A stretch of 38,352 nt of DNA from Lachnospiraceae bacterium (GTDB lineage Bacteria; Bacillota; Clostridia; Lachnospirales; Lachnospiraceae). Position numbers and translations under genes: made by a program. The stretch lies in contig JAGBEV010000059.1 in NCBI GenBank assembly GCA_017936785.1, positions 1 to 38,352 on the forward strand, written 5' to 3'. Positions 1 to 24,968 of the stretch are shown piece after piece (the first letter of the stretch is position 1; the number at the start of each line of letters is the position of its first letter). The notes under the pieces were generated by a model that made no database searches, was not told the origin of the DNA, and was given only the letters and a program-made list of their open reading frames with translations.

Positions 1-56
1 AACAGCCATGGATGGCTGTTTTAGTCTTCGTGCGGCATGGATGCCGCTTGAAGACG
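1..56 (+). repeat. Two-hairpin structured repeat, copy 1
   Basis: Two adjacent hairpins joined by TTAG. The first (1-20) has arms AACAGCC and GGCTGTT around ATGGAT. The second (24-55) has an outer stem GTCTTC/GAAGAC and an inner stem GCGGC/GCCGC that also closes on ATGGAT. The same architecture occurs, in the opposite orientation, at 18228-18284 in the middle of the long inverted repeat next to vanG. The inner stem is identical but the outer stems differ by compensated changes. It lies beyond the terminator of the NlpC/P60 gene, and its left flank is cut by the window edge. No function is assigned. Confidence 0.75.
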
Positions 57-182
57 ACTCGTCCGTTATCCTTACCTCCATCCATTCTGTTAGAAAAATT
101 CGTTTTCCAGCTCCGCTCCTTAAAATACCTTATACCCTCCCCTCCACTTCCCCCTCCTGCCTGCCCTGTCTTTGGCTGCACC

Positions 183-213
183 AAAAAAGGCTTCAGCCAA
201 TGGCTGAAGCCTT
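183..213 (-). terminator. Terminator of the NlpC/P60 gene
   Basis: On the minus strand, arms AAGGCTTCAGCC and GGCTGAAGCCTT around a 3-nt loop run into TTTTTT. It starts 18 bases after the stop of the NlpC/P60 hydrolase. The region 57-182 to its left is pyrimidine-rich on the plus strand and I see no gene in it. Confidence 0.9.
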
Positions 214-13932: not shown

Positions 13933-16191
13933 TTAAATCCTGTCATTTTGTGCCACAATATGTCCCAGCCGGCTTCCCATTCTGCAAAGGAGCTCATTGG
14001 TAATGGTTCCCGCCGCCGCTGCCACTTCTTCGGCACTGATACCTGCTCTTCCCGCTTCTCCGATCAGAATAACTTCATCCCCGGGTTTTACATCTTCAAT
14101 CCCCGTCAGATCCACTGTCAGCTGGTCCATACAGATTCTGCCGATGATGGGCGCCTTTTTCCCTCCGATCAGAACCCAGCCTTTTCCATTGGACAGATTT
14201 CTGGGATATCCGTCTCCATACCCGATGGTTACCGCTGCTATCATCATATCATAAGGCGCCCTAAAGGTACATCCGTATCCGACACACTCCCCTTTGTTCA
14301 GTTTTCTGACCAGCGCCACCCTTGCCTTTAAGGTCAGGACAGGTTTTAAAGAAAGCTCCCTTTTTACTTCATCATCCGGACTGCTTAAGCATCCGTACAT
14401 CATGATTCCCATGCGCACATAACTGCACTGAAGCTCCGGATAGTTTACTGTGCCATAGCTGCTTTGCAGATGGGTCTTTAATCCTGTATATCCTGCTGTT
14501 TCTATTTTATCTAAAACCTGCTCAAAATTCCTGATCTGCTTTCTTGTATACAGGACCGCTTCATCCTCTCCTCTGTCAGACACACACAGATGGGAAAAAA
14601 TACCCTCTATCTGCAAATTGGGATACTGGAAAATGTTGAGAATTTTATCCCCATTGCGCCAGTCTTCTCCCAACCGGTGCATTCCCGTATCCACTTTTAC
14701 GTGTACCTTCACAGGAATTCCCTGTTCATTTAACTGTCCGGCATAGTTTTCATCCAAAACAGTCTGCACCAGATGATACTTTGCAAGATATCCAGCATTT
14801 TCCGGTGAAGTGTAACCTAAGATCAGTATCTTTCCTTTTAAGCCATTTTTCCTTAAATGAACAGCCTCTTCCAATGTGGCTGTTGCAAAGGCTTTCACTC
14901 CCATACCATAAAGGAATTTTGCCACCTCCACATCTCCATGACCGTAGGCATTTGCCTTTACAACTGCCATAAACTTACATCCCTTTGGGAGATTTGCTTT
15001 GATTTGCTCCACATTCCACTTTAAATGCTCCAGATCGATTTCAATCCACGCCCTGTCAGTCTGCAGCTCCGGAAGGATGCTTTTCTTTTTCTTTTTTCCT
15101 ACGCCCAATAAATGATATATTGCCAATAATATCCATGCGGCAAATGCGCTTAATAAAGATACTGCCAGATAGCAGACCAGCGTATTTTCCACCAGAATGT
15201 CATAAAGCCCTAAGGGTTTGGACACACCTCGCAATGCTACCAGTACGAAGGGATGGATGATATAAATGAGCATCGCTCCATTTCCCATATCTTTCCTTCC
15301 GGCTCCGATACTTTTTCTATTTTTTCTTTCCCTTTTTTGGCTGTTTATTCCACAGGAGAGACGGCTGATCCATAGAAACAGGAAATACATCAACGGCACC
15401 AGTAAAATATACATACTGTCATGCCTCTGCCACCGTAGCTTGTGTAAAAGCAAGCCTTCCCCAGCCATCAGTAAAAAGAAAATAACCGCTTCCATCCCCG
15501 TTATCAGCTGACTGTACTCCTTTTTTCTCTCATTTGTTTTTGCAGCAAGACAGCCCAGCATCAAAAATGCCGGTGCAAAGAAAATTCCGTTTCTTGTATA
15601 AGAAGATATTTTAAATATCTCATCATAAACTTTTCCCAAAAGGGGCAGTATTTTGGTCAATCCATAATAGCTGTCACCCACCAGTCCCAACACATATAAG
15701 ACCAGAGAAATTGCGAAAGCCGCCTTTTCTCCTATGGCACGGATCAGCATAAGACAGATGAGCATTCCCAGCATGACTGCCGGCAGATACCACAGATGAT
15801 AAAAAGTGCCATCAAAGAAAACGTCCCTGCATACTTGTCCCAATGAAATATCTTTGAAATTGCCTGCATAAATATTGACGGGCAGATAGAGCAGGGTTGC
15901 CGCCAGATACAATATGCAGGTTTTCTTTAAGAATCTAAGAGCCTTTCCATTATGCTTTTTACAATCTGAAAGGACAAAATATCCCGATACCATAAAGAAG
16001 AAAGGAACAGCTATCCTTGCTATGATCCGGGTGAACACAAAATCAGCCGTCTCATTGATGCTTTGCAGTGGCGATACATGAATCGCCACTACCAGAAAGG
16101 CACACAAAAGCTTCATGTACTCTATGGAAATATTTCTGCCGCCTTTTCCGTCATTTGTTCTTCTCTGTTTTGAAAGCACCTGCCCGCTCAT
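13933..16191 (-). CDS. vanT: VanT membrane-bound serine/alanine racemase
   Basis: 752 residues, the two-part architecture of VanT. The N-terminal acyltransferase-3-like membrane domain (about 18-365) has about ten helices. The C-terminal PLP-dependent alanine-racemase-fold domain (about 380-752) carries the PLP-binding lysine K412 in VVKANAYGHG and the catalytic Tyr639 in VGYGCTF. In VanC/E/G-type resistance this enzyme makes D-serine for the ligase. It is last in vanG-vanXY-vanT; its ATG overlaps the vanXY stop (ATGA), with RBS GGGAGG inside vanXY. No frameshift or missing catalytic residue is seen. Confidence 0.95.
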   Translation of the reverse strand: MSGQVLSKQRRTNDGKGGRNISIEYMKLLCAFLVVAIHVSPLQSINETADFVFTRIIARIAVPFFFMVSGYFVLSDCKKHNGKALRFLKKTCILYLAATLLYLPVNIYAGNFKDISLGQVCRDVFFDGTFYHLWYLPAVMLGMLICLMLIRAIGEKAAFAISLVLYVLGLVGDSYYGLTKILPLLGKVYDEIFKISSYTRNGIFFAPAFLMLGCLAAKTNERKKEYSQLITGMEAVIFFLLMAGEGLLLHKLRWQRHDSMYILLVPLMYFLFLWISRLSCGINSQKRERKNRKSIGAGRKDMGNGAMLIYIIHPFVLVALRGVSKPLGLYDILVENTLVCYLAVSLLSAFAAWILLAIYHLLGVGKKKKKSILPELQTDRAWIEIDLEHLKWNVEQIKANLPKGCKFMAVVKANAYGHGDVEVAKFLYGMGVKAFATATLEEAVHLRKNGLKGKILILGYTSPENAGYLAKYHLVQTVLDENYAGQLNEQGIPVKVHVKVDTGMHRLGEDWRNGDKILNIFQYPNLQIEGIFSHLCVSDRGEDEAVLYTRKQIRNFEQVLDKIETAGYTGLKTHLQSSYGTVNYPELQCSYVRMGIMMYGCLSSPDDEVKRELSLKPVLTLKARVALVRKLNKGECVGYGCTFRAPYDMMIAAVTIGYGDGYPRNLSNGKGWVLIGGKKAPIIGRICMDQLTVDLTGIEDVKPGDEVILIGEAGRAGISAEEVAAAAGTITNELLCRMGSRLGHIVAQNDRI

Positions 16192-16838
16192 GACACTCCC
16201 TCCCCTCTTTCTGCCATTTCCACCTTGCCGAAGCAGGTCTCCTCTTGGGTTTTCTCTGAATTTTTATCCGTAGCTTTTTTCGTAATCTCTTCCAGATACG
16301 CAATATATTCTTCCAAGGCAAAATCTTTTTCCTTTATGATCCTTGCATGAGGTACTCCCACATAGCGGAAATGCCACTGTTCGGCAGATATGCCCGTGAC
16401 CGCCTCCTTGGATTTCTGATACCTTTCTATAAACCCATAATCTGCGGCTCTTTCCCTGAAGGTCTGGCAGATTCCCTCATAAGGAAATGCCGGGCGGATA
16501 AAATCAATTTCATCTGCCTTTAAGCCCAGGTCTATCGCCAGCCCTGTTTCATGCTCGCTGCATCCCGGTTTTGCCACGTATTTTTTCGTAAACTCCAAAC
16601 CGTTTTCCTTTATGGAGTCATTCCAGATCTCTTCCTGCTCCTTCCTTGTGCGGTAACCGCTGACTAATACGATCTTATCCTCAGGCAGCGTATCCAGCAG
16701 CGTCTGTAAATGTTCTGCCGCTTCCTCTTCCATAAAAATGCCTGTCCCCGGAAATTCCCTCAGCTTCTCCTGCCCTTCTTTCTCATAAGGGTGTGTTGCA
16801 TTTACTAAAATTAAATATTGGTTATCTTCTCTATTCAT
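16188..16838 (-). CDS. vanXY: VanXY D,D-peptidase (M15B)
   Basis: 216-residue zinc peptidase of the VanY/VanXY (M15B) family with no signal peptide, so it should act in the cytoplasm like VanXY. Key motifs are VSGYRTRKEQEEIW, SEHETGLAIDLG (zinc ligands His and Asp) and EQWHFRYVG (catalytic Glu and third ligand His). VanXY enzymes hydrolyse D-Ala-D-Ala and remove the terminal D-Ala from pentapeptide precursors while sparing D-Ser ends. It overlaps vanG by 8 bases and vanT by 4, with little RBS of its own, implying coupled translation. Confidence 0.93.
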   Translation of the reverse strand: MNREDNQYLILVNATHPYEKEGQEKLREFPGTGIFMEEEAAEHLQTLLDTLPEDKIVLVSGYRTRKEQEEIWNDSIKENGLEFTKKYVAKPGCSEHETGLAIDLGLKADEIDFIRPAFPYEGICQTFRERAADYGFIERYQKSKEAVTGISAEQWHFRYVGVPHARIIKEKDFALEEYIAYLEEITKKATDKNSEKTQEETCFGKVEMAERGEGVS

Positions 16839-17913
16839 ATTTCATCGCCAGCCTTATCAATCGGTCTACTATCTGTTCAAAGGTATACCCCTTTGCCTTC
16901 ATCATGGAAGGAAATCTGGAATGGGCGGTAAAGCCCGGTATGGTATTTACCTCATTGAATACGATTTCTCCCTGAGGCGTTAAAAACATATCCACTCTGG
17001 AATAGTCCTTCAGTCCCAGGGCGCGGTATATTTTCATTCCCGTTTCCCTGATCCTTTCCTCCGTCTCTTCCGGTATTCTTGCGGGCATATGAATTTTAGA
17101 TGTTTTTAAGGTATATTTTTCTGTGTAGTCAAAGAAGCCGTCTGCCAGCTCTATTTCATCCACCCTTCCTACAATCAGTTCTTTATTTCCCATAATGGCG
17201 CAGCCTACTTCAAAGCCTTCGATATTTTCTTCGATGATCACTTCCCTGTCATGCTCAAAGGCATGTTCTATTGCATCAGCAAGGTAAAGGGAGCTGTTTA
17301 CCTTTGTAATGCCAAAGGAAGAACCTGCTCTGACCGGTTTTACAAAAACAGGATATTTAAGCCCTGCAACCTTGCCTGCTGCCTGATCTTTACTTTCTCC
17401 CTTCTGCAAAACAACGGAGGCAGGCACTTTGATCCCTGCATCCTCCACCAGCCTGTGCGCCAGATCCTTATCCATACAAATAGCTGACCCCAACATATCC
17501 GGTCCTACGCATGGAATCCCCGCCAGCTGGCAAAGTCCCTGCAGTGTACCATCCTCTCCGTTTTTGCCATGAAGTACAGGGAAAACCACATCGATATAGC
17601 ACAGTTCTATTCCGTTTTCACGCCAGATGGCAATGCCATGTGCCGAGCGGTCAGGCTGCAGACAGGCACGGCTGACCGGTCCTTTCTTCCATGTGTTATT
17701 TTCAATCTGCTCCACTTCCCCTTCATATAAATACCATTCTCCTTCTCTGGTGATTCCCATGGTCAGCACATGAAACTCCTCTCTGTTTATGGCACGGATC
17801 ACCGCCGAAGCCGACTGCAGGGATACATCATATTCCGTAGAACATCCCCCGAATAAAACCAGAATTGTTCTTTTGTCCATACTTTCTTGTCCGTCAATTT
17901 TTCTTTTGCCCAT
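16831..17913 (-). CDS. vanG: D-alanine--D-serine ligase VanG
   Basis: 360-residue ATP-grasp ligase of the Ddl/Van family. Visible are the N-terminal LVLFGGCSTEYDVSLQSASAV, the ATP-binding PVFVKPVRAGSSFGITKV, EENIEGFEVGCAIMG, the loop EKYTLKTSKIHMPARIP and the C-terminal SRVDMFLTPQGEIVFNEVNTIPGFT. The EKY..IHMPARI loop and FNEVNTIPGFT fit the VanC/E/G (D-Ala-D-Ser) branch. The neighbouring VanT and VanXY make D-Ser the expected second substrate. Start chosen at 17913 because AAGGAG lies 7 bases upstream; an internal Met (17880) aligns with common family starts but lacks an RBS. It is the first gene of the effector operon, probably induced through VanR. Confidence 0.93.
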   Translation of the reverse strand: MGKRKIDGQESMDKRTILVLFGGCSTEYDVSLQSASAVIRAINREEFHVLTMGITREGEWYLYEGEVEQIENNTWKKGPVSRACLQPDRSAHGIAIWRENGIELCYIDVVFPVLHGKNGEDGTLQGLCQLAGIPCVGPDMLGSAICMDKDLAHRLVEDAGIKVPASVVLQKGESKDQAAGKVAGLKYPVFVKPVRAGSSFGITKVNSSLYLADAIEHAFEHDREVIIEENIEGFEVGCAIMGNKELIVGRVDEIELADGFFDYTEKYTLKTSKIHMPARIPEETEERIRETGMKIYRALGLKDYSRVDMFLTPQGEIVFNEVNTIPGFTAHSRFPSMMKAKGYTFEQIVDRLIRLAMKYE

Positions 17914-18041
17914 TTTTATTCTCCTTTTCTAAAATATTGTGAAAAAATCCTGCAATTTAATTCATGCAGATTACAAAATTTTCATCCGTAATCTTCACAA
18001 TTTCAGAATAGCAGGGCAAAATCTTATTTTTATTGCCGAAA

Positions 18042-18059
18042 TCTTAAGCCTGTCTTAAG
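18042..18059 (-). promoter_or_regulatory. Candidate VanR box upstream of vanG
   Basis: On the minus strand, two CTTAAGA half-sites start 11 bp apart (CTTAAGA-CAGG-CTTAAGA). That is the tandem arrangement bound by OmpR/PhoB-type regulators. A similar pair lies upstream of vanR. Possible -10 sequences are AAAAAT about 10 bp downstream, or an extended TGCTATTCT (18005-18013) further on; no good -35 is visible, as expected for an activated promoter. Confidence 0.55.
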
Positions 18060-18087
18060 ATTTTCTTATTTTTAAACATAAAAAAAG

Positions 18088-18418
18088 AACTGCCGCAAAA
18101 GGACAGTCCGTCCCGGGGCGGTATGCGGTTTGGGCAGCAGAGGGAAAGCATTTTATTTTTCATGATTGAGCTGTAAATCGGATTTTACTAACAAAATAAT
18201 GATAGGTTAATGGAAAACTTCCGGGTCGCCATCTAATGCGGCATCCATGCCGCAAGATGGCTAAAATTGCCATCCGGGCAATTTCCCCCTGGGTTGTGAA
18301 ATTATTTTGTAAGTAAAATTACCGATTTAGCAGCTAAAATCATGAAAAATAAAATGCTTTCCCTCTGCTTCCCAAACAGCATGCCGCCCTGGGACGGACT
18401 GTCCTTTTGCACCACTTC
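18088..18418. mobile_element. MITE-like long inverted repeat between vanS and vanG
   Basis: Two arms of about 106-110 bases, 18095-18200 and 18301-18410, are imperfect reverse complements with only scattered mismatches (outer ends AAAAGGACAGTCCGTCCC; inner ends CAAAATAAT). Weaker matching extends a few bases outward. The 100-base centre carries the two-hairpin repeat, copy 2. It contains no transposase or open frame of interest. It ends within about 20 bases of the vanS stop and begins just upstream of the candidate VanR box. No clear target-site duplication is seen. Because the arms fold fully in RNA, it may also end or weaken vanRS read-through into vanG. Confidence 0.75.
18228..18284 (-). 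repeat. Two-hairpin structured repeat, copy 2
   Basis: Read on the minus strand: hairpin one has AAATTGCC/GGCAATTT arms around CGGAT (18264-18284). TTTTAG follows, then hairpin two (18228-18261) with outer stem GCCATC/GATGGC and the same inner stem GCGGC-ATGGAT-GCCGC as copy 1 (1-56). The differences between copies preserve pairing. It reads in the same direction as vanRS. Confidence 0.75.
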
Positions 18419-18427
18419 CTATATACC

Positions 18428-19576
18428 CTACTTAGGCAATATAACGGTAAACACCGTCTGTTCTACACTGCTTGTAACAAGTATTTCCCCTTCATGCGCC
18501 GTGACGATTTCCTTTGCAATGGCAAGTCCCAGACCTGCACCTCCCGTTGCACTGGATCTGGAATTATCGAGACGGTAAAACTTTTCAAATATAACATTTA
18601 ATTTATGCTCCGGAATAGGATCTCCGTGGTTGATGAACTGAATCCATGTTTTTTCCTCAGAATCCGTCACCTTCACCTGGATAGTGGAATTCCTTTCGCT
18701 GTACGCAATGGCATTCTTTAGGATATTGTTAAATACCCGGGCGATCTTATCCGCATCTGCATAAATGAATATGCCCTCTTCCGATTCCACTACAGCTTCT
18801 TTTCCCTGTGCTTCCAAAATGGGATAAAATTCATCGGCCATCTGCTGCAGCATATAAGAAAGGTTGATCTTCCTCTTATTTAATATAAGGGTCTGAAGAT
18901 TGAACCGGGTAATCTCAAAGAACTCATTGATCAAATCTTCCAAACGCTCTGCTTTTTCCAGGGCAATTCCCACGTATTTCGCCTTCTGCTCCGGCGGCAT
19001 ATCCGGCGCTTCATGAAGAAGGCTCAGATATCCGATCACCGAGGATAACGGCGTTTTCAGATCATGTGCCAGATAAGTGATCAGATCATTCTTGCGGACA
19101 TTTTCCATTTCCGCTTCCATTTTGCGCTGTTCCATATCCCGTTTTGCTGCATTCATTTTCTTTTCCAAAGAATGTAGCTCCTGAGGCAGCTCCACATCCT
19201 GGTGATCTTCTAACAGCATCAGATCCAATCCCCGGTCTATCATCTTAAAATACCGGATGACGATCCGCAGCAGGACAAACCAGCTTATGATCAGAAACAA
19301 TACCATCAAGCCCAAAAACATCAGCAGTCCCCAGTTTTCCCGGAAGGTATATTGGTATATGTTCCTTGCATCATAATAATCCAGATGAAACTTTTTCTGT
19401 AAGAAACTTACCACCAGATTTCCTAAATTGCCATATACCACATACTGGTACAACAAATAAAGCACTATCCCAGATACGATCAGGATTCCAGCCATCATGA
19501 GGAAAATCTTAAGCTTCAGCCTTGTATAATTTTCTTTTTTCCTATTCTGTTCTTTATTTTTTTCATTAGCCTTCAA
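18428..19576 (-). CDS. vanS: VanS sensor histidine kinase
   Basis: 382-residue membrane kinase. Two membrane helices (about 24-46 and 82-107) flank a short external loop of about 35 residues. A HAMP-like linker and coiled coil (about 108-162) lead to the HisKA motif LAHDLKTPLSSVIGYLSLLHE with phospho-acceptor H171. The HATPase domain follows, with NNILKNAIAYS (N box) and GGAGLGLAIAKEIV (G2 box). The start is a TTG: no in-frame ATG lies before the first membrane helix, and AGGA is 7 bases upstream. It overlaps vanR by 11 bases. Position and type make it the VanS partner that phosphorylates or dephosphorylates VanR in response to glycopeptides. Confidence 0.92.
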   Translation of the reverse strand: MKANEKNKEQNRKKENYTRLKLKIFLMMAGILIVSGIVLYLLYQYVVYGNLGNLVVSFLQKKFHLDYYDARNIYQYTFRENWGLLMFLGLMVLFLIISWFVLLRIVIRYFKMIDRGLDLMLLEDHQDVELPQELHSLEKKMNAAKRDMEQRKMEAEMENVRKNDLITYLAHDLKTPLSSVIGYLSLLHEAPDMPPEQKAKYVGIALEKAERLEDLINEFFEITRFNLQTLILNKRKINLSYMLQQMADEFYPILEAQGKEAVVESEEGIFIYADADKIARVFNNILKNAIAYSERNSTIQVKVTDSEEKTWIQFINHGDPIPEHKLNVIFEKFYRLDNSRSSATGGAGLGLAIAKEIVTAHEGEILVTSSVEQTVFTVILPK

Positions 19577-20264
19577 TGGTATATCCTACTCCCCATACCG
19601 TTTTGATATATTTGGGATTCTCTGCCGAATCCTTCATTTTTTCCCTTAAATGTCTGATATGTACCATAATAGTATTATTGCTGTTGGTAAAATATTTATT
19701 GCCCCAGACCCGGTAAAACAGATCATCGGAGGAAACAACCTGTCCCCTGTTTTCACAAAGAACCCACAGGATCTCAAATTCCGTAGGCGTTAGAGAAATC
19801 TCTTTTTCATTTAAACTGCATTTGCGGGTATTTTTATCAATGATCAGACCGCCGATCATGATCTCTCCGCTGTCCTCAGGCTTTGTCTGCGCATTGTATC
19901 TGGTTGCCCTTCTAAGCTGCGCCTTTACCCGGGCGATCAGTTCCAATGGCTGAAAAGGCTTTGTCATATAATCATCCGCCCCAAGGGTCAAGCCTGTGAT
20001 CTTGTCAATTTCCGCTTCCTTTGCCGTCAGCATGATAATGGGGAAATTTTTTGTCTTTCTGATTTCCCTGCATATTTCAAAACCGTCCATATCCGGCAGC
20101 ATCACATCTAAGATCGCCAGATCTATTTTTTCACTGACAGCATATGCCAGCGCTTCCTTCCCGGTATAAAACTTACATACTTCATAATTTTCATTTTGTA
20201 GAAAAACTTCGATCAGATCGGCAATTTCCGTCTCGTCATCCACAACTAAGATTTTGGTCTGCAT
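19566..20264 (-). CDS. vanR: VanR response regulator (OmpR family)
   Basis: 232 residues. The receiver domain (about 1-118) has acidic D9/D10, phospho-acceptor D53 in AILDVMLPD and K102 in TKPF. The OmpR-type winged-helix DNA-binding domain (about 130-232) has SLTPTEFEILWVLCENRGQVVSSDDLF and the end RHLREKM...VWGVGYTI. I chose the ATG at 20264 (RBS AGGAG, 6 bases) over an upstream in-frame ATG at 20300, which adds twelve residues before the usual KILVVDDE start and lacks a clear RBS. It heads the vanRS operon and should activate vanG-vanXY-vanT and possibly itself. Confidence 0.94.
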   Translation of the reverse strand: MQTKILVVDDETEIADLIEVFLQNENYEVCKFYTGKEALAYAVSEKIDLAILDVMLPDMDGFEICREIRKTKNFPIIMLTAKEAEIDKITGLTLGADDYMTKPFQPLELIARVKAQLRRATRYNAQTKPEDSGEIMIGGLIIDKNTRKCSLNEKEISLTPTEFEILWVLCENRGQVVSSDDLFYRVWGNKYFTNSNNTIMVHIRHLREKMKDSAENPKYIKTVWGVGYTIEG

Positions 20265-20412
20265 AAAAATCTCCTGATAAATTCCGGGCGCTTTATCCAT
20301 ACATGCCCTTAATAAAAATATTTTATCATTACCTGCATGCTATTTACAAGGGAATAATATTTCCCTTTTGTGTTTTAAATAAAATAAACTATTGAACGTT
20401 TTAACGAAATAT

Positions 20413-24687: not shown

Positions 24688-24724
24688 ACTCAATACAGCA
24701 TAAAAAACGTTTTATCCGATTGTT

Positions 24725-24912
24725 TTTCTCCGTCCTTTTGCCTGAGAGATTGAACGAAATTACGATTCCGTCTTGCACCTTCGGCACCCATATATGGGAT
24801 TCTCCAGAGTCACATCCATTTGCAGTCTCTATCCTGACGGATACCTGAGAGTGTTACTCCTTCGGTGCGAAACCCTTTCTTCCACAAAGCTGTTTCCGCT
24901 TTCCTGCAAACT
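24725..24912 (-). ncRNA. Tandem glycine riboswitch
   Basis: On the minus strand, two glycine aptamers lie in a row. The first has CACCGAAGGAGTAAC and ACTCTCAGGT...AGGATAGAG (about 24827-24880). The second has GTGCCGAAGGTGCAAG and ATCTCTCAGGCAAAAGGACGGAG (about 24728-24800). The CCGAAGG loops and CTCAGG...GGA cores are the diagnostic parts. The ends are approximate. It sits in the leader of the AGCS symporter, followed by a terminator hairpin. Confidence 0.92.
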
Positions 24913-24968
24913 TCGCCTGTCTTTATATACTTTAGTTTAACACATAGACTAATTTATTCTTTTTCCCG

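Follow-up and report, generated by a model that had tools for sequence, protein, structure and literature searches.

TwoAYGGAY elements of a Lachnospiraceae genome form the tips of long palindromes and may display a CsrA docking site

Introduction

The TwoAYGGAY motif was first published by Weinberg et al. (2010; PMC2864571) and is held in Rfam as RF01731, with the type Cis-reg and a place in clan CL00106 (Csr-Rsm protein binding). In the table of the original report, which was accessible in part, the discoverers rated the motif 'probably' as an RNA and 'probably not' as cis-regulatory. A motif scan of 2014 put forward the sequestration of CsrA by TwoAYGGAY in Clostridia, according to the available portion of that article (PMC4333381). 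In the partly accessible literature under the name TwoAYGGAY or the accession RF01731 no experimental test was found, and paper listings on CsrA RNAs in Lachnospiraceae, MITEs in clostridia and CsrA/FliW sponges gave nothing relevant. The CsrA site has been described as RUACARGGAUGU, mostly situated in hairpin loops, and the CsrA dimer bridges sites 10 to 63 nt apart, with distances above 18 nt being best (available sections of PMC7652899).

Three further described systems are close to the elements studied here. The Csr/Rsm sponges CsrB and RsmZ, members of the same clan, share hairpin-loop GGA motifs at a dimer-bridging distance. They carry many sites in one RNA, whereas the present elements have one GGA pair per copy, many dispersed copies and long arms. 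REP/REPIN elements with their RAYT (Y1) transposases are likewise dispersed intergenic palindromes, often in inverted pairs; the arms found here are far longer and a link to a Y1 transposase is missing. With MITEs the present elements share a short, palindromic and non-coding nature and the occurrence of empty orthologous sites, but no terminal repeat common to all copies, no constant target duplication and no partner transposase was found.

The analysis started from one contig of a Lachnospiraceae bacterium (the window, 38,352 nucleotides in length; contig C40 of the genome), which contains two copies of the element. Three features reported below, namely the co-occurrence of the element with csrA and flagellin, a GGA pair of fixed spacing and copy-specific palindromes that are poor in wobble pairs, make TwoAYGGAY testable and raise the question of whether its working form is RNA or DNA.

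Results and Discussion

Two TwoAYGGAY copies in the window

Both window copies matched the RF01731 covariance model above the gathering cut-off of 43 bits, one at 18168-18333 (-) with 72.4 bits and the other, truncated at the 5' end, at 1-116 (+) with 51.3 bits. By model score, both are members of TwoAYGGAY, i.e., new instances of a known family, which corrects the initial annotation, in which the family had not been recognised as a named one. Besides the score, the likeness to the Rfam family consists in two GGA-loop hairpins and an outer stem. Of the four loops in the window, three read ATGGAT, as expected from AYGGAY; the loop of hairpin one in copy 2 departs from the motif and retains GGA. 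The features of both copies are listed in Table 1.

Table 1. Coordinates of the two TwoAYGGAY copies and of one neighbouring feature in the window. Copy 2 is given in Rfam orientation.
Feature	Positions	Strand	Description
Copy 1 core	1-56	+	Hairpin one, TTAG joint, hairpin two; both loops ATGGAT; left side truncated where the contig ends
Copy 1 right internal loop and right arm	57-166	+	1-166 is 98.8% identical to C41:1-166, divergent beyond
Terminator-like hairpin and T run	183-213	-	Belongs to the NlpC/P60 gene (231-1505, minus strand); outside the element; read from sequence
Copy 2 outer 3' arm	18087-18167	-	Inverted repeat I1; genome matches are itself and its partner only (E < 0.05)
Copy 2 inner 3' stem	18182-18200	-	Inverted repeat I2
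Copy 2 core	18228-18284	-	Loop one CGGAT, TTAG joint, loop two ATGGAT; inside the RF01731 match
Copy 2 inner 5' stem	18301-18319	-	Inverted repeat I2; 19 nt, pairs with 18182-18200 (95% complementary)
Copy 2 outer 5' arm	18338-18418	-	Inverted repeat I1; 81 nt, pairs with 18087-18167 (91% complementary)
Copy 2 whole palindrome	18087-18418	-	332 bp; predicted single hairpin, -203 kcal/mol

The two cores are present where the initial annotation had placed them, and its description of the TTAG joint and of an identical inner stem of hairpin two (GCGGC-ATGGAT-GCCGC) was confirmed. The same holds for the four compensated pair changes, which lie in the arms of hairpin one (CAGCC/GGCTG versus TTGCC/GGCAA) and in the outer stems (GTCTTC/GAAGAC versus GCCATC/GATGGC). 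Those coordinates cover the core only, and both copies belong to larger elements. Each core is predicted to fold into two hairpins, with -31.0 kcal/mol for copy 1 and -29.3 kcal/mol for copy 2. The GGA motifs of copy 1 are located at positions 10-12 and 39-41, 29 nt apart. Its left arm lies beyond the end of the window, and the other side of the site is found on contig C41.

Copy 2 is situated between the sensor kinase and the D-Ala-D-Ala ligase genes of a vanG-type-looking cluster (13933-20300), which by domains comprises a response regulator, a sensor kinase, a D-Ala-D-Ala ligase, a VanY-type carboxypeptidase and an acyltransferase with alanine racemase. A tandem glycine riboswitch was detected at 24720-24916, the second aptamer of which scored 29 bits, just under the cut-off of 32.

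Every analyzed copy is the tip of a long palindrome

A total of 26 RF01731 matches with E values up to 0.001 was identified in this genome, 24 of them above the cut-off. The scattered family of folded elements that had been suspected from the two window copies is thus present. In G005 29 matches were found and in G008 31, and G003 has 24 copies. For the analysis of the arms, 138 copies from seven genomes were used, consisting of 23 of the 26 matches of this genome and 115 listed copies elsewhere; the truncated copy at C31:12070, the contig-end halves on C40 and C41, the copies of G001, G004 and G006 and unlisted matches are outside this set.

All 138 copies form the tip of a long imperfect palindrome, and 131 of them pass a strict arm score, the seven copies with weaker arms all belonging to G012. 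The median span of the 131 strong copies is 232 bp (range 210 to 454 bp) with a median arm identity of 85%, so that the palindromes extend beyond the 168 positions of the Rfam model. The core is better conserved than the outer arms in all seven genomes (medians of 0.63-0.86 versus 0.48-0.72).

The arms are largely specific for the individual copy. All 23 left arms of this genome match only themselves and their own partner (E < 0.05), which at this sensitivity led to the rejection of arms that are copied from, or aimed at, another locus. Arm ends of these 23 copies are unrelated and have no terminal repeat in common, while many copies of the closely related species G003, G005 and G008 (hereafter the trio), not all, start with GTT and end with AAC. 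In this trio the arms are common to orthologous copies and mostly unlike between different copies; in G012 they are partly alike between copies (median outer-arm identity 0.72). For the loci L002 and L003 the cores were found to be 99% identical with outer-arm identities of 0.54 and 0.44, no closer than unrelated arms. Since these two loci combine near-identical cores with unrelated arms, it was considered that arms are made anew at each insertion. This is not needed as a rule, given the shared arms of orthologs and the partial likeness in G012. For L002/L003, conversion of the core or remaking of the arms would be candidate explanations. Where two copies of one genome had a core identity of 95% or more (n = 20), their left arms had a median identity of 0.60, compared to 0.41 for shuffled sequences.

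In the accessible parts of the earlier TwoAYGGAY descriptions, long, copy-specific and wobble-poor palindromes that are gained and lost as units are absent.

Palindromes are present or absent as units

Empty orthologous sites were identified for four elements of this genome, three on contig C10 and that of window copy 1. At the three C10 sites the flanks of the relatives close up with at most 140 bases between them, too short for a full element. Seven relatives were compared at site A, three at site B (a fourth, with flanks 6 kb apart, was left uncounted) and six at site C. The flanks of window copy 1, on contigs C40 and C41, match the two sides of a single intergenic region in locus L189 and end 5 bases apart (4385 and 4391). 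For this site the loci of 20 relatives gave no match above the cut-off; two matches in L201 lie elsewhere. As the whole palindrome is absent at these four sites, palindromes including their arms come and go as units.

Where every relative compared lacks the element, its acquisition in the present lineage would be the more parsimonious explanation. Within the trio, two of the absences are bounded by short direct repeats and resemble deletions. No constant target-site duplication was seen among a 5-bp overlap of matches at site A (G002 and G004), a 2-bp gap at site C (G002 and G006) and about 5 bp at copy 1, the relatives being too diverged for a clear reading.

The absence of whole palindromes in relatives, together with the copy numbers given above, can be read as the behavior of a DNA element, i.e., a MITE-like, non-coding palindrome that is mobilised in trans by a transposase and functions as a cruciform or a single-stranded hairpin. 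We regard this as a possible but rather unlikely alternative to the reading preferred below. That no terminal repeat shared by all copies and no constant target duplication was seen argues against it, and so does the search for a mobilising partner. A Y1 (HUH) transposase was found in 32 of 65 element-bearing genomes and in 187 of 332 others (p = 0.34), and none was found in G008 and G004; mobilisation of the HUH/RAYT kind was therefore rejected for want of an association. A match to a REP family, named at the outset as a possible refutation, is not the case as far as tested. One element searched against plasmids and another searched against phages gave no match. With regard to a cargo transposon, no transposase was recognised by eye in the ORFs of a 2.3-kb insert between two copies (L133) and of a 3.2-kb gap (L141).

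An invertible element was also considered, because the starts of C40 and C41, the two flanks of one site, consist of the same half element pointing outward in the same way. In comparisons between genomes, the orientation was unchanged in 354 copy pairs with matching flanks, and 14 pairs matched only when flipped; in those of the flipped pairs that were inspected, the partner copy seems to be missing or the spacer of the pair to be short. An assembly artefact at the palindrome is a likelier source of the C40 and C41 ends than an inversion.

Covariation and scarcity of wobble pairs

Covariation in the core was analyzed with 130 distinct cores, in which 95 first and 89 second hairpins could be placed. 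At stem pairs 3-6, Watson-Crick pairing was found in 94-95 of the 95 first and 83-89 of the 89 second hairpins. Each of these pairs occurs as three or four pair types, and the observed value was reached in none of 500 shuffles per pair. The closing C-G pair is kept in all placed hairpins. The initial statement that the fold and not the sequence has been kept therefore applies to the stems; it fails for the closing pair and for the loop GGA, which are conserved in sequence.

Covariation extends into the arms. At least one double change was found for 53 of 73 pairs in 16 subtype-1 copies of G008, for 20 of 64 in 14 copies of G012 and, in 23 copies of this genome, for 54 of 61. In these three sets, Watson-Crick pairs made up a share of 0.93, 0.96 and 0.87, compared to shuffled means of 0.71, 0.89 and 0.57. 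G-U pairs account for 1.9%, 1.6% and 2.4% of the pairs, whereas 14.3% was determined by the same steps for 6S RNA (a control made from 30 of 40 listed places in relatives).

Strict arm mismatches are nearly symmetric with 171 G-T and 162 A-C, compared to 8:0 in the 6S control. Against such a symmetry, the balance differs by genome, from 35 G-T to 13 A-C in G005 to 8 G-T to 23 A-C in G002, and with lenient alignments the A-C to G-T counts were 456:276 and 438:255 for the elements and 105:198 and 79:169 for 6S. The scarcity of G-U and the similar numbers of G-T and A-C in the arms are unlike an RNA that is read from one strand. This hints at, but does not prove, a maintenance of the stems at the level of DNA or on both strands. 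Either folded RNA or single-stranded DNA, the two forms named in the initial annotation, may apply, the G-U scarcity being unlike an ordinary RNA.

These values fit the DNA element, in which selection at the DNA level or template switching during replication would preserve the complementarity of the arms and the GGA would be read on one DNA strand. The uneven mismatch balance between genomes argues against it, as does the conservation of GGA on one strand, which fits a strand-specific reader and is simply explained by RNA.

A combined account can be given as well, which we consider doubtful. In this account, a mobile, DNA-level palindrome family would scatter CsrA docking sites over the genomes of flagellated Lachnospiraceae, the arms would change as matched pairs by a DNA process and the GGA tip would be kept by CsrA. 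That the arms change without G-U intermediates would mean here that a DNA process keeps their complementarity. If true, a repeat family would be wired into a global regulator.

The GGA pair and the co-occurrence with csrA and flagellin

The GGA of both loops, on one strand, is the most conserved unpaired feature and was found in 234 of 246 called hairpins. The remaining 12 comprise five hairpins in G016, three of one ortholog set and four that by reading are not apical hairpins; in several G016 copies and one ortholog set of the trio, a loop has lost its GGA. Of the 138 cores, 121 contain the motif C-A(N)-GGA-N-G exactly twice with a spacing of 27 to 31 nt, compared to 3 of 138 shuffled cores with two motifs. 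The spacing falls in the range published for bridging by the CsrA dimer.

This genome contains csrA. In a survey of 397 genomes of the host family, the element was found in 65 and csrA in 210 genomes, and the positives lie in 58 genera. csrA is present in 62 of the 65 element-bearing genomes and in 148 of the 332 others (Fisher p = 4e-16, with genomes treated as independent). Flagellin follows the same pattern (64 of 65 versus 149 of 332, kinship ignored), so that a link to CsrA is inseparable from one to motility. No csrA hit was obtained for the element-bearing genomes G191, G342, G381 and G003, the last with 24 copies. On contig C32 of G003 (L186), flgK is followed by a 307-aa ORF on the other strand and then by fliD-like genes, and flgL-fliW-csrA, present in G008, is absent. 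Part of this contig recurs in C5, and a misassembly is therefore possible.

The reading we prefer, with confidence about evenly balanced, is a dispersed, insertion-like palindrome of flagellated Lachnospiraceae that displays a site for a CsrA dimer when transcribed. Intergenic DNA would gain or lose the long palindrome as a whole. Transcription in Rfam orientation would yield a long hairpin, and at its tip two GGA hairpins with a spacing of about 29 nt would both be bound by one CsrA dimer. The element would then act as a CsrA decoy or, within the transcript of a neighbour, as a segment that responds to CsrA. Counted in favor of this reading were the two model matches above the cut-off, the Rfam clan, the GGA pair and its spacing, the published CsrA site, the co-occurrence with csrA, the csrA gene of the host, the missing Y1 link and the sequestration proposal of 2014; counted against it were the equally strong flagellin link, bearers without csrA, lost GGAs, scarce G-U, symmetric mismatches and the lack of promoter and terminator signals. 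Docking of CsrA at the tip, already proposed in print and here a candidate rather than a proven role, is the best-supported function. If CsrA is bound, Csr control in these gut bacteria would have an RNA branch in addition to FliW, the protein antagonist.

Orientation and transcription signals

Between co-directional genes of the trio, subtype 2 lies in sense orientation in 19 of 26 cases and subtype 1 in antisense orientation in 24 of 34. Such a relation to transcription, like the Rfam type, would suit a cis-acting leader or intergenic operon element that reads another ligand or protein and does not involve CsrA. This explanation is improbable, as no single orientation prevails over all copies with two neighbours (46 sense-sense, 48 antisense-antisense, 26 and 11 mixed), and the discoverers' rating also stands against it.

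No sense promoter stands out; promoter-like scores of at least 10 were obtained for 10 copies, compared to 4 on the other side. A role as transcription terminator or 3'-end stabiliser is the least probable explanation, very unlikely even though in 27 of 34 cases in the trio the right end of subtype 1 is turned toward the 3' end of a gene, since a T run within 20 nt of the 3' end follows in 8 of 137 copies, compared to 24 of 137 on the antisense side. A plain terminator, the other refutation considered at the outset, is accordingly not the case. The NlpC/P60 gene beside window copy 1 has a terminator-like hairpin of its own, so the element is not its only terminator, and a comparable hairpin with T run is located downstream of the same gene in the relatives inspected, also in those without the element.

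Neighbouring copies within 1200 bp, analyzed outside this genome, are arranged minus then plus, pointing apart, in 27 of 28 pairs; one pair in L109 is on the same strand. In L105 (G005) and L127 (G003), imperfect tandem repeats of about 60 bp, recognised by eye, fill most of the 461-bp spacer of an element pair. The pair in L001/L008 (G000:C56, about 40500-41160) encloses two copies of TGTTTCACGTGAAACA, which we take to resemble a parS site. In L192, a Clostridiales-1 RNA (RF01699) was identified at 2644-2796 with 125 bits.
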